This document shows, in pieces, positions 4,832 through 8,623 of a stretch of DNA of 64,000 nucleotides. The notes below the pieces were generated by a model. It ran no database searches, was not told where the DNA came from, and saw nothing but the letters and a program-made list of their open reading frames with translations. The stretch lies in the NCBI GenBank assembly GCA_003212345.1, contig QCPZ01000002.1:147173-211172 (forward strand), in the 5' to 3' direction. Origin of the DNA: SAR116 cluster bacterium AG-447-A06 (lineage in GTDB: Bacteria > Pseudomonadota > Alphaproteobacteria > Puniceispirillales > Puniceispirillaceae). The translations under genes and the position numbers were made by a program. Numbering within the stretch: position 1 is the stretch's first letter; every line of letters begins with the position of its first letter.

Positions 4832-5169
4832 TACCCAGCTACTCTGCGGGGTGTGCCCCATCCAAATATTGAAAACTTTTACCGACGCAGAGTGAAACGA
4901 CTCTCTCTCTATTGATCTCTAATGATGATACCCGCCAAGGAGTGATTGATATCATCCGGCCTCTTAAAAAAATAGAAATCACTCCCAGTAGAAGAGCTTC
5001 CACCGTAATTTTCAGCTTGTCGGTGGGCTAGCTGCAATCCTTGAGCTTGAAGTTTCTGCTCAATAAAAACTGTCATCCATGGGGATAGCGATTTTCGCCG
5101 AGTTTTGTTGGTTGCGGAGGTGAAGTTTGAACCAACGATCTTCAGGGTATGAGCCTAATTGTCTCGCAT
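4832..5169. other. intergenic stretch between convergent glpK and SDR genes
   Basis: A 338-base stretch. It contains an 8-bp inverted repeat (ACTCTGCG at 4841-4848, CGCAGAGT at 4886-4893) just after glpK, with a long loop and no T-run, and a possible 55-codon reading frame on the minus strand (listed separately). Nothing else is recognisable. Confidence 0.5.
4909..5076 (-). CDS. possible small protein (55 aa), unknown
   Basis: From the ATG at 5076 a 55-codon frame runs to TAG at 4909-4911, beginning MTVFIEQKLQAQGLQLAHRQ and continuing through a Ser/Gly-rich bend to FYFFKRPDD. The same frame stays open upstream to 5154 (about 26 further codons including TNKTRRKSLSPW) without an ATG, GTG or TTG, so the ATG could be internal to the remnant of a longer gene. 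Amino acid composition looks protein-like. It lies 90 bases after the end of the SDR gene on the same strand and could be the last member of that operon. I recognise no family. Confidence 0.33.
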   Translation of the reverse strand: MTVFIEQKLQAQGLQLAHRQAENYGGSSSTGSDFYFFKRPDDINHSLAGIIIRDQ

Positions 5170-5883
5170 TTAGGGTTTTCTAGTTTTAAAATGAATGACT
5201 TTTGATGCTGGTGATAAATTTATTTCGTCAATCACGGTGCCCTTCCGCGCCCCAACCGTCTCAACAATTACTTTTGCAATATCCTCTGGCTCTATAGCGT
5301 TTTCTGGAGAGTTACCAGGTTCAAAATCCAGGTCGTTAAAAAACGCACTCCTGACCATGCCAGGATTGATTAAACAAACTCTCAGGCCAGATGATCCCAC
5401 CTCATCTCTCAAGGATTGAGCAAAACCACGCATCCCAAATTTGGCCGATGAATATAACGTTGCTTTTCTTTTACCTAATAAAGCTGCTTCCGAACCAACT
5501 ATAACAATATCTCCTTGCCCAAGCTTTTTCATGCTGCTGACCATGTGCCGACATAGAACAATGTGAGCGACTAAGTTTACATTTATAAATTCTTGAATTT
5601 GCTTATGCGAAAAATTTTCAAGGTGCCTAAAATCACCAAAACCGGCATTGCAAACCAACACACTTATTTTTGGGTAATCTTTTGAAATATCCGCGGCAAT
5701 TTTATCTAATTTATCGATATCAGAAAAATCCGCTCTACGAGGATGATAGCGATCATGACTAATCTCATATTTGTCATGATATCGAGCCAAGCCAATTACC
5801 GTAAAGCCTGACTCTAAAAACCTAGTGGCAGTTGCCCGCCCAATGCCACTTGAACTTCCTGTGATAACGGCAACCTTATGCAA
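5170..5883 (-). CDS. short-chain dehydrogenase/reductase (SDR)
   Basis: A 237-residue classical SDR: NAD(P)-binding TGxxxGxG motif as ITGSSSGIGRATA at the N-terminus, the NAG motif (VCNAGFGD), and the catalytic Ser...Tyr-x-x-x-Lys set (VGSEAA, then YSSAK). It is an NAD(P)H-linked oxidoreductase of unknown substrate. The start codon is TTG (TTG CAT AAG), preceded by GAGGA about ten bases upstream; an in-frame stop just upstream excludes a longer form. It follows the radical SAM gene by 24 bases and is probably the fourth gene of the operon with the glycosyltransferase and nucleosidase-like genes, so its substrate is likely a product of those enzymes. Confidence 0.85.
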   Translation of the reverse strand: MHKVAVITGSSSGIGRATATRFLESGFTVIGLARYHDKYEISHDRYHPRRADFSDIDKLDKIAADISKDYPKISVLVCNAGFGDFRHLENFSHKQIQEFINVNLVAHIVLCRHMVSSMKKLGQGDIVIVGSEAALLGKRKATLYSSAKFGMRGFAQSLRDEVGSSGLRVCLINPGMVRSAFFNDLDFEPGNSPENAIEPEDIAKVIVETVGARKGTVIDEINLSPASKVIHFKTRKP

Positions 5884-5907
5884 TTGAAATTTTCCTCATT
5901 ATCCATT

Positions 5908-6900
5908 TCATATTAAGCATTGGAATATCCTATCCGTTCCAAGATATTTTTTTAGTTCATCTTGAATGTAATTTGCCATTTCATTTTCAATCTCAGGTCC
6001 ATAGGAAACTAATTGTCCTGTTGTTTGCATTGGAAATGCAAACAACTTCTCCTCAGGATACAAAGCCGCAATCGTGTTATACATCTTTTTTGGATATCTT
6101 AGCGGTCCAAAACTAACCGAGTGCAGGTTTCTGATTTCTAAGTCAGTCATGATATCTTCTATGAGCTCAGAATAGAGTCCTCTCCAATTTTCACAAAAGA
6201 TCAACGGGTCTAACCGTAAGCCAATAAACCATCCGGATTTTGTAAGCTCCTTTATAGCCCGGATTCTCCTCTTCACTCTGGGTGCTTTTTTATCAAGAAC
6301 GTCTGCCACACTCTCGGGAGACAAGCTGAAGGCAACAACGCAATTCGAGATGGGTTCCAGATCCAATAATGGTTTAATATTCACACTCTTGGTTCTCAAC
6401 TCAAACTCAACTTCTGGATGTCTTTTGAAAAATCTCAGGGTATGTTCTGCAAAAGTGGTAATTTTTTCAAAAGCAAGAGAGTCGCAATCATATCCTGAAA
6501 AAAAGGTTAGTGATGAGCCTGCATTATTTTGGATAGTTTCTGATATGGATCTAAAAAAGTCTTCGAAATTGACAAACAATAAATAATTGGCTGAAGAGTA
6601 CATTCCTTGCAAGAAGCAATAGCGGCAATCATAGATACAATTATACATGTGCGAAAAATAGAAGTTCTTTTGAGAACCCATTCCAAAACCAGGAGGCGCG
6701 GGCAACACAAAGTTATCGTGTTTCTTAGCCAAAATCAGTGCAGGCTTTTCTTTTTGAAGACGAAAGTTTTGCTGCCTTTTATTGAACATTTCTTGATAAC
6801 GATTAATATTGAGTACATCAGCATTTGGAAGACGTGATAGAACACGTTCCGTGATTGGATGATCTATTATTTGACTTTCGACAAACACAGTTTCGATCAT
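5908..6900 (-). CDS. spore photoproduct lyase-like radical SAM protein
   Basis: A 330-residue radical SAM enzyme resembling SplB. The [4Fe-4S]-cluster motif CxxxCxxC is present as CIYDCRYC (Cys88, 92 and 95), at nearly the same position as in Bacillus SPL, and is followed by FLQG in the usual place. SPL splits the thymine dimer 5-thyminyl-5,6-dihydrothymine in spore DNA, but alphaproteobacteria do not form spores. In the region where Bacillus SPL keeps its hydrogen-donor Cys, this protein has SGYDCDSLAFE, whose Cys is not in the same register. So the substrate may differ. The ATG at 6900 overlaps the stop of the upstream nucleosidase-like gene (ATGA); an upstream TTG at 6912 is less likely. 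Confidence 0.8.
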   Translation of the reverse strand: MIETVFVESQIIDHPITERVLSRLPNADVLNINRYQEMFNKRQQNFRLQKEKPALILAKKHDNFVLPAPPGFGMGSQKNFYFSHMYNCIYDCRYCFLQGMYSSANYLLFVNFEDFFRSISETIQNNAGSSLTFFSGYDCDSLAFEKITTFAEHTLRFFKRHPEVEFELRTKSVNIKPLLDLEPISNCVVAFSLSPESVADVLDKKAPRVKRRIRAIKELTKSGWFIGLRLDPLIFCENWRGLYSELIEDIMTDLEIRNLHSVSFGPLRYPKKMYNTIAALYPEEKLFAFPMQTTGQLVSYGPEIENEMANYIQDELKKYLGTDRIFQCLI

Positions 6901-7745
6901 TTTAATTTCCAACTTTGTGCTTCTGAAGCAATGTCAAGCTCCATACTTTGCATTAAGTCTTTTGCAGAGGATGCTTTTTGTGCTCTGTCAACCAGAGACT
7001 CGTTAGGAAATAAACACCACCACTTTTTATAAATTTTCCGAAATCTAAGTCGGTTTGTTTCTGTGAAATGCAGCGAGCCCATTATGCCGTCCATTTCTAT
7101 TGAGTCCTCCAATCTAGCCCTCTCTCGGTCAACAATCTTAACAATAGCCTGCAATAGATTATCAATAATGGAAGAGTTCTTCTTGAAAAGATCAGCAATC
7201 ATTTTTTTTGTTACTAATGATTGCGAATGCTCCGATGTATCTGAGACTATTTTCATAACAAAAGTAAGTTCATTACAAGAGAGACTTGGTGCAATTTCAC
7301 AAAAACCAGCGGCCTCCATGTCGTATAGAACAGGCAGAGTAAATTCATTCTCGGGCGAGCTTACGGTGCAAAGCTCTGCGGGCTCTGCTAACTTAGAAAA
7401 CCTTAGGCCCGGAAAAAAGGATTTGCCATTGTCATTGTTAACTACTTTGATTGCTTGGAACAGCGTTCCGACAGGCCCCTGAAAATGACCTGCTATTCCA
7501 ATATTAATCCATGCAACAAACTGACCAGGTTTAAAAGTGTTATTCAAATACATCGTAGCTACAGCAGATTTGATAGACCCAACACCTGATATCACAAGGG
7601 CGTGACCATTTTTGCGATTTATATATATCGGGAAATTAAGGTGGTTTGAAAAACTCTTTAGGTTAAATTTTTGTATCAGTGCATTAGCCTCTGGCCGCAA
7701 AGCGACAACCCAAAAGAACTTCAATTCCTGATTTGTATCATTCAC
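6897..7745 (-). CDS. PNP/MTAN-type nucleoside phosphorylase or nucleosidase-like protein
   Basis: A 282-residue protein with the hallmarks of the PNP/UDP-phosphorylase superfamily, nearest to MTA/SAH nucleosidases: the glycine segment VISGVGSIKSA (about 51-61), NIGIAG (about 81-86), the ribose-binding YDMEAAGF (Met143, Glu144) and the purine-binding Ser-Asp pair in IVSDTSE (Asp169). The C-terminal 100 residues after the core are an unusual extension. It probably cleaves an N-glycosidic bond of a nucleoside or nucleoside-like compound. The start is GTG at 7745, whose last two bases form the stop of the preceding glycosyltransferase (GTGA overlap), and its own stop overlaps the radical SAM gene. 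It is thus coupled on both sides. Confidence 0.78.
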   Translation of the reverse strand: MNDTNQELKFFWVVALRPEANALIQKFNLKSFSNHLNFPIYINRKNGHALVISGVGSIKSAVATMYLNNTFKPGQFVAWINIGIAGHFQGPVGTLFQAIKVVNNDNGKSFFPGLRFSKLAEPAELCTVSSPENEFTLPVLYDMEAAGFCEIAPSLSCNELTFVMKIVSDTSEHSQSLVTKKMIADLFKKNSSIIDNLLQAIVKIVDRERARLEDSIEMDGIMGSLHFTETNRLRFRKIYKKWWCLFPNESLVDRAQKASSAKDLMQSMELDIASEAQSWKLK

Positions 7746-8623
7746 ACTGCACCATTTCTTTCATTTGAGAGTATTGCTTCCAACATTGTTTTTTTCTTGT
7801 CTAACTTTTTTACAAATGCGTCTTTTTTTCTTTTACGCCCACCGTCAATTAACACTTTGAGCTTAAATATCAGCTCTTTAATTGTTTCCTTACGTTTAAA
7901 ATCGCTCAGACCCTGATCTTTGAGAAGCTTTTCAAGTGCGATAACTCTAAATCTATCCATACCCCAGTACTTTTTTGACAGCTGTTGGTCGTGGCCACCA
8001 TTTTTTATCAATAAATGCTCGTTTACAAAATGCACATCCTCAAAAGCACAAAAGCGAAGCCAAAAATCATAATCCTCACACGCGGGTAAGTTTTCATCAA
8101 AGAACCCAAAATCGTCAAAAACAGAGCGATCAACTAATGAAGAACTTGGCGAAATACAACATAATTTGAGGCATTGAATAAAAATATCCCCACCACTCTT
8201 TTCGTGCTTGAGACGAGAATTTACCCTTACACCATTTCTCACCCATATTTCGTTTGTGTGACTTAACCTGTATTGTGTTGACTGACTCTCCAGACTTAAG
8301 ATTTGTTTTTCCAATTTTTTTTCTAACCATAAGTCATCAGAATCCAGAAACGCTATGTACCTAAATTTTGAAGCTTTTATTCCTAGATTTCTTGCTGCGC
8401 TTACACCTTTATTTCTCTGAAAAATGTAACGGAGTGAGTTTCTCTCCTCTTTTGAGTCAGAAAAACCAAGTGTCTTTAGAATATCCCAAGTTTTATCACT
8501 TGATCCGTCATCAACAACAATCACTTCATCCGGTTTTTTTGACTGCTGTAATGCAGAGACAACACATTGCTTGATAAAACCCTCGCGGTTAAAAGTTGGT
8601 ATCACAACAGAGACAGTAGACAT
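7742..8623 (-). CDS. glycosyltransferase family 2
   Basis: A GT-A fold glycosyltransferase of about 293 residues. The N-terminus is the GT2 hallmark VSVVIPTFNREGFIKQCV, then VIVVDDGSSDKT, and the metal/nucleotide-sugar binding acidic motif FLDSDDLW; the acceptor-side motif EDYDFWLR is also present. It has no obvious membrane segment, so it probably acts in the cytoplasm. I start it at the ATG at 8623; a TTG eight codons upstream lacks a better ribosome binding site. It is the first gene of the minus-strand operon and overlaps the nucleosidase-like gene by four bases. Acceptor unknown; cell-surface glycan and small-molecule glycosylation are both possible. Confidence 0.85.
   Translation of the reverse strand: MSTVSVVIPTFNREGFIKQCVVSALQQSKKPDEVIVVDDGSSDKTWDILKTLGFSDSKEERNSLRYIFQRNKGVSAARNLGIKASKFRYIAFLDSDDLWLEKKLEKQILSLESQSTQYRLSHTNEIWVRNGVRVNSRLKHEKSGGDIFIQCLKLCCISPSSSLVDRSVFDDFGFFDENLPACEDYDFWLRFCAFEDVHFVNEHLLIKNGGHDQQLSKKYWGMDRFRVIALEKLLKDQGLSDFKRKETIKELIFKLKVLIDGGRKRKKDAFVKKLDKKKTMLEAILSNERNGAV

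Follow-up and report, generated by a model that had tools for sequence, protein, structure and literature searches.

Here, we describe a set of four genes on the minus strand (8623 to 5170) of a 64,000-nucleotide stretch of contig QCPZ01000002.1 from SAR116 cluster bacterium AG-447-A06, hereafter called the window. They encode a GT2 glycosyltransferase, a nucleosidase-like protein (NUC), a radical S-adenosylmethionine (SAM) protein resembling spore photoproduct lyase (SPL) and an SDR reductase, and all or part of the set is found again in bacteria of several phyla. Taken together, the four genes likely serve an undescribed radical reaction and not DNA repair. We state with confidence that the module exists, that it is widespread, that two of its members can be fused and that it is separate from SPL. 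In the window, the GT2, NUC and SPL-like genes are joined via four-base overlaps and the SDR gene begins 24 bases further on. This confirms the arrangement noted in the original prediction, whose family assignments for all four products match those of Pfam and NCBIfam, that of NUC being weak.

The gene order is not private to the window's genome. A scan of genome_contigs with an SPL alignment gave at least 535 relatives, the best 80 of which were kept as related loci and their gene content read by tblastn and clusters of open reading frames (ORFs); the SDR of locus L059 was seen by tblastn. GT2-NUC-SPL-like-SDR, in that order, was found in 52 of the 80 loci. GT2 adjoins NUC in 54 loci, and an SDR gene stands beside the SPL-like gene in 77 (tblastn); these cassette SDRs (80 rows) split from 14 other SDRs of the same loci with a FastTree support of 0.93. 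A shorter form, SPL-SDR, makes up the 23 methanotroph-type loci, 17 of which have proC among the listed neighbouring genes, and two loci (L046, L047) are interrupted by contig ends. No further neighbour is common to all loci, the flanking genes being clade-specific. Judged by record title, the hosts include SAR116, Rhodobacteraceae, Rhodospirillaceae, Chromatiaceae, Methylococcales, Marinimicrobia and Omnitrophica. Closer to the window, the SPL gene is present in 3 of 16 genomes of the genus, its own genome counted, and a match above 100 bits was given by 1 of 398 sampled genomes of the phylum, again its own, which makes the family rare across a wide sample. SPL and NUC share the same 14 of 61 relatives, the only addition for NUC being a 20-bit partial match in another genome. 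On the tree, which like the residue counts below excludes L097 and L099, the window's SPL-like protein is nearest, after two SAR116 kin, to Rhodobacteraceae sequences, so that transfer of the gene among marine bacteria is likely.

The set can be both split and fused. NUC was sought in 16 of the 23 methanotroph-type genomes and was encoded away from SPL-SDR in 15, the sole miss being a genome of 1.0 Mb. A GT2 gene (43-49% identity to that of the window) lies inside the fetched flank of 7 of these 15 separate NUC regions, adjacent to NUC in 4 of them, and on the tree this split form groups with linked forms from Chromatiaceae and Omnitrophica. In Fusobacterium vincentii SB055, NUC and SPL form one ORF of 623 residues, followed by SDR. 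A search with the fused protein gave 693 matches; all 120 that were listed have 623 residues, and the named ones among them come from F. nucleatum, F. polymorphum, F. animalis and F. watanabei. The NUC, SPL and SDR genes of one faecal contig overlap, and a second carries SDR, a 160-residue C-terminal half of NUC, and SPL. By tblastn, no GT2 was detected in the fetched 18.9 kb of the Fusobacterium locus or in the two faecal contigs as fetched; in these hosts the core is thus NUC-SPL-SDR, and GT2 counts as an extra outside it. The kept order, the co-occurrence and the gene fusion bear out the earlier expectation that the four products are used together.

The SPL-like protein has the overall SPL fold and passes PF20903 (81.2 bits, cut-off 27), but falls short of the TIGR04070 equivalog (104.1 bits, cut-off 400), and its clade is separate from Bacillus SplB (98 percent SH-aLRT, quick tree). 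Residues were counted in 84 rows of this clade and in four SPL-type comparison rows, one a Bacillus splB and three annotated as SPL family only. At the position of the hydrogen-donor Cys (Bs C141, Gt C140), all 84 rows have Tyr and all four SPL-type rows have Cys. The relay Tyr (Bs Y99, Gt Y98) is Phe in 81 rows, namely all 81 of the marine and methanotroph type, the window included. The earlier expectation of something other than an ordinary SPL, with a donor Cys out of register, is upheld by both the tree and the Tyr. R169, D231 and D138 occur in 84/84 rows, where the four SPL-type rows have V/T, A and T/Y; since these residues are invariant in the clade and different in SPL-type rows, the pocket has probably been rebuilt. 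A study of B. subtilis SPL reports that its C141A and Y99F variants use about one SAM per repair and do not regenerate it (PMC3742179). With donor Cys and relay Tyr replaced, ordinary photoproduct repair is unlikely.

NUC shows the MTAN fold with its catalytic residues and scores under the curated cut-offs of NF004079 (28.7 vs 169), TIGR01704 (13.9 vs 73.8) and the futalosine hydrolase model TIGR03664 (31.4 vs 124.7). The catalytic residues are kept in 69 of 74 rows, a count that excludes the 160-residue faecal NUC, and are lost in the five rows of one SAR116-type marine clade. Intact groups give a dN/dS of 0.29 and 0.19, and four of these five degenerate rows give 0.27, a ratio by which the degenerate NUC is judged to be under purifying selection. 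The shortened faecal relative keeps the C-terminal half alone, with SPL and SDR retained. That two lineages lost the active site and retained the protein is easier to reconcile with a role as helper or partner than with an indispensable nucleoside step. MTAN enzymes are known to accept 5'-deoxyadenosine, which also inhibits radical SAM reactions (PMC7557402).

We tentatively favour, at somewhat less than even confidence, a reading in which an SPL-fold radical SAM core, its NUC partner, SDR and GT2 form one radical-reaction module. The SPL-like enzyme would spend one SAM per turnover, consuming it instead of regenerating it, and would generate a radical on a small molecule resembling a sugar or polyol. 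NUC would bind the SPL-like enzyme where the genes are separate and would usually hydrolyse the released 5'-deoxyadenosine; SDR may reduce the resulting carbonyl, and GT2 may attach a sugar. Which class of substrate is used, and whether SDR or GT2 acts first, are guesses; a sugar or polyol is the most natural one given a GT2 alongside a radical SAM enzyme and a reductase. A precedent for such a pair is the radical SAM dehydratase AprD4 with its NADPH-dependent reductase AprD3 (PMC5461906); here, too, an SDR-type reductase gene stands beside the radical SAM gene. The fuller claim, of an SPL-fold and MTAN-fold unit, fused or operonic, that carries out a new sugar or glycan radical reaction in at least four named phyla, with NUC a pure scaffold in two lineages, comes close to an even balance in our judgement. 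In the open-access literature, we found nothing uniting SPL, glycosyltransferase and nucleosidase, and nothing uniting SPL, non-spore-forming and radical SAM.

Several observations weigh against this radical-reaction module. The three Fusobacterium and faecal rows keep the relay Tyr, leaving the Cys as the sole sign there that SAM regeneration was lost; the remaining 81 rows have an invariant C139 that could act as donor from a shifted position; and the donor Cys is lost elsewhere too, being Glu in 4/4 rows of another SPL-family group. As to the partners, two Marinimicrobia loci (L055, L066) consist of GT2-NUC-SPL with no SDR beside SPL, an Omnitrophica locus (L073) of NUC-SPL with neither SDR nor GT2 there, and in 8 of the 15 NUC regions from methanotroph-type genomes, which include short contigs, the search for a nearby GT2 found nothing. 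Because Fusobacterium encodes two further PF01048 proteins, removal of its 5'-deoxyadenosine could fall to a general nucleosidase. Finally, the sugar nature of the substrate is itself a guess.

The alternative that survives best, possible but doubtful, is an adenosylation of the kind carried out by HpnH-HpnG in hopanoid or MqnE-MqnB in menaquinone synthesis. An unsaturated acceptor would receive the deoxyadenosyl radical from the SPL-like enzyme and then lose adenine through NUC; SDR would reduce the freed sugar aldehyde and GT2 would glycosylate it. The enzyme classes correspond one by one to the steps of the hopanoid side-chain pathway (PMC12583986). The 69 NUC rows with intact nucleosidase residues fit this scheme, as does the split operon, where SDR remains with SPL and NUC has GT2 as its immediate neighbour in four of the 15 regions and close by in three more. 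However, adenosylation would require the NUC active site, which two lineages have lost with SPL and SDR kept. A hopanoid side chain was rejected as the general target, because the cassette genomes outside the methanotrophs, 25 in all and several of them incomplete, gave neither a squalene-hopene cyclase match nor an HpnH over cut-off; both are over cut-off in 6/6 methanotrophs. Arsenosugar and menaquinone routes were looked for in the literature alone.

A further alternative is that the module serves nucleoside or nucleobase salvage, for example a queuosine route resembling QueK-QueL, in which QueL is a radical SAM enzyme; NUC would free the base, the SPL-like lyase would split the side chain and SDR would handle the fragment. 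SPL acts on nucleobases, the window's genome has TGT and no clear QueC, and QueK and QueL are established as nucleoside hydrolase and queuine lyase, respectively (PMC11130926). Yet we consider salvage improbable: QueC above 100 bits is missing from 60 of the 61 relatives, with or without the cassette, the single holder carries the cassette, and QueC exceeds 200 bits in 6 of 22 cassette genomes. The distribution of the module thus fails to follow a need for salvage, and GT2 would have no role. Queuosine salvage was accordingly rejected for want of correlation with QueC and TGT. TGT itself is common among the SAR116 relatives (52/61 genomes); with QueC so rare there, their queuosine precursors probably come by another route.

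That the protein is merely a diverged SPL repairing DNA photoproducts, its neighbours mere passengers, is very improbable, given the replaced donor and relay residues, the other differing conserved residues, the separate clade, and a nucleosidase fusion, SDR and GT2 at odds with repair. The original prediction had proposed a nucleoside-modifying pathway, yielding a nucleoside natural product or serving a damage response. Its joint use of the products and its non-ordinary SPL stand; neither the nucleoside product nor the DNA-damage response was borne out, since NUC has lost its active site in two lineages that retain it.

The features of the window locus are collected in Table 1.

Table 1. Genes and sequence features of the four-gene locus in the window (positions are those of the window).
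Feature	Position	Strand	Remarks
GT2 glycosyltransferase	7742..8623	-	293 aa from ATG at 8623; PF00535 108.8 bits
NUC, MTAN-fold nucleosidase-like partner	6897..7745	-	282 aa, GTG start
NUC C-terminal helical extension, about residues 209-282	6900..7121	-	within the part kept by the shortened faecal homologue
SPL-like radical SAM enzyme	5908..6900	-	330 aa
CxxxCxxC [4Fe-4S]/SAM motif, C88-C92-C95	6616..6639	-	from sequence; invariant in 84/84 rows
Y137-D138-C139	6484..6492	-	Tyr at the SPL donor-Cys position; Cys two residues later
SDR reductase	5170..5883	-	237 aa, TTG start; GSSSGIG and YSSAK motifs; PF00106 144 bits
tRNA-Met 3'-half-like sequence just past SDR	5109..5156	-	possible old integration scar

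The G+C content of the four-gene stretch is 38.3%, against 45.3% for the remaining window. The tRNA-like remnant resembles initiator tRNA-Met; ARAGORN called no tRNA within the window. An intact tRNA-Met (CAT) flanks 13 of the 80 loci, always on the cassette strand (L025, L026, L029, L030, L036, L038, L039, L043, L044, L048, L049, L050 and L076), and no other tRNA was called by ARAGORN in any of the 80. Apart from NUC, the window's genome encodes another PF01048-type protein of about 191 residues (G000:C11:24560-24970), and similar short proteins also occur in cassette-free relatives. In the Marinimicrobia genome with locus L055, the SPL gene is immediately followed by a gene for a second PF01048 protein, encoded on the other strand (G474:C23:5928-6641).

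A viral or plasmid-borne module was considered and rejected. The 'viral_contigs' search gave no relative, and the 'phages' search gave two matching records, both faecal contigs with bacterial-looking neighbours. The 'plasmids' search gave 13 matches. One, a Fusobacterium record of 2.1 Mb, scored well above (33% identity, 195 bits) the remaining 12 (at most 81 bits), and the five of those 12 that were placed on the tree fell outside the SPL-like clade. This Fusobacterium record (L141, NZ_CP084075.1) is filed as a plasmid, and the faecal contigs (L142, MT835770.1; L143, MT835514.1) are filed as 'Bacteriophage sp.' with genes that look bacterial. Roseomonas plasmid p546-2 (L146:776-2897) carries a tandem pair of SPL-family genes, one from each of two distant clades.

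If the radical-reaction module is real, it would be a case of a radical SAM enzyme served by a nucleosidase of its own, in some hosts fused to it, and would show how a cell handles the inhibitory by-product of one such enzyme where it arises. Cultivated methanotrophs such as Methylomonas koyamae, Methylomonas lenta and Methylobacter tundripaludum hold NUC, SPL and SDR, so the reaction can be sought directly. In aquatic bacteria and Fusobacterium nucleatum, such genes have been annotated as spore photoproduct lyase or DNA photolyase, names that are probably wrong for genes that stand in a separate clade and have partner genes of their own.

Among known systems, SplB (PF20903, TIGR04070; structures 4fhc, 4rh0, 4k9r) has in common with the SPL-like protein the fold, the CxxxCxxC motif, Y94 (Gt Y96), K171 and R212, whereas the donor Cys (Tyr), the relay Tyr (Phe in 81/84), other invariant residues and the operon partners differ. 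NUC shares with MTAN and futalosine hydrolase of the PF01048 superfamily the fold over residues 7-208 and the catalytic Glu, Met-Glu and Asp; unlike them, it scores below the cut-offs, has a C-terminal helical extension, lacks the active site in some members and is linked, in places by fusion, to a radical SAM enzyme. HpnH-HpnG-HpnI of hopanoid side chains likewise unites a radical SAM enzyme, an adenine-removing enzyme and a glycosyltransferase in one pathway, but its radical SAM enzyme is of another family, and our module is also present in genomes that gave no match to squalene-hopene cyclase. AprD4/AprD3 of apramycin synthesis pairs a radical SAM enzyme with an NADPH-dependent reductase, as the module does; in the account given it has no nucleosidase partner, unlike the module, and the likeness drawn here between AprD4 and the SPL-like enzyme is one of role.

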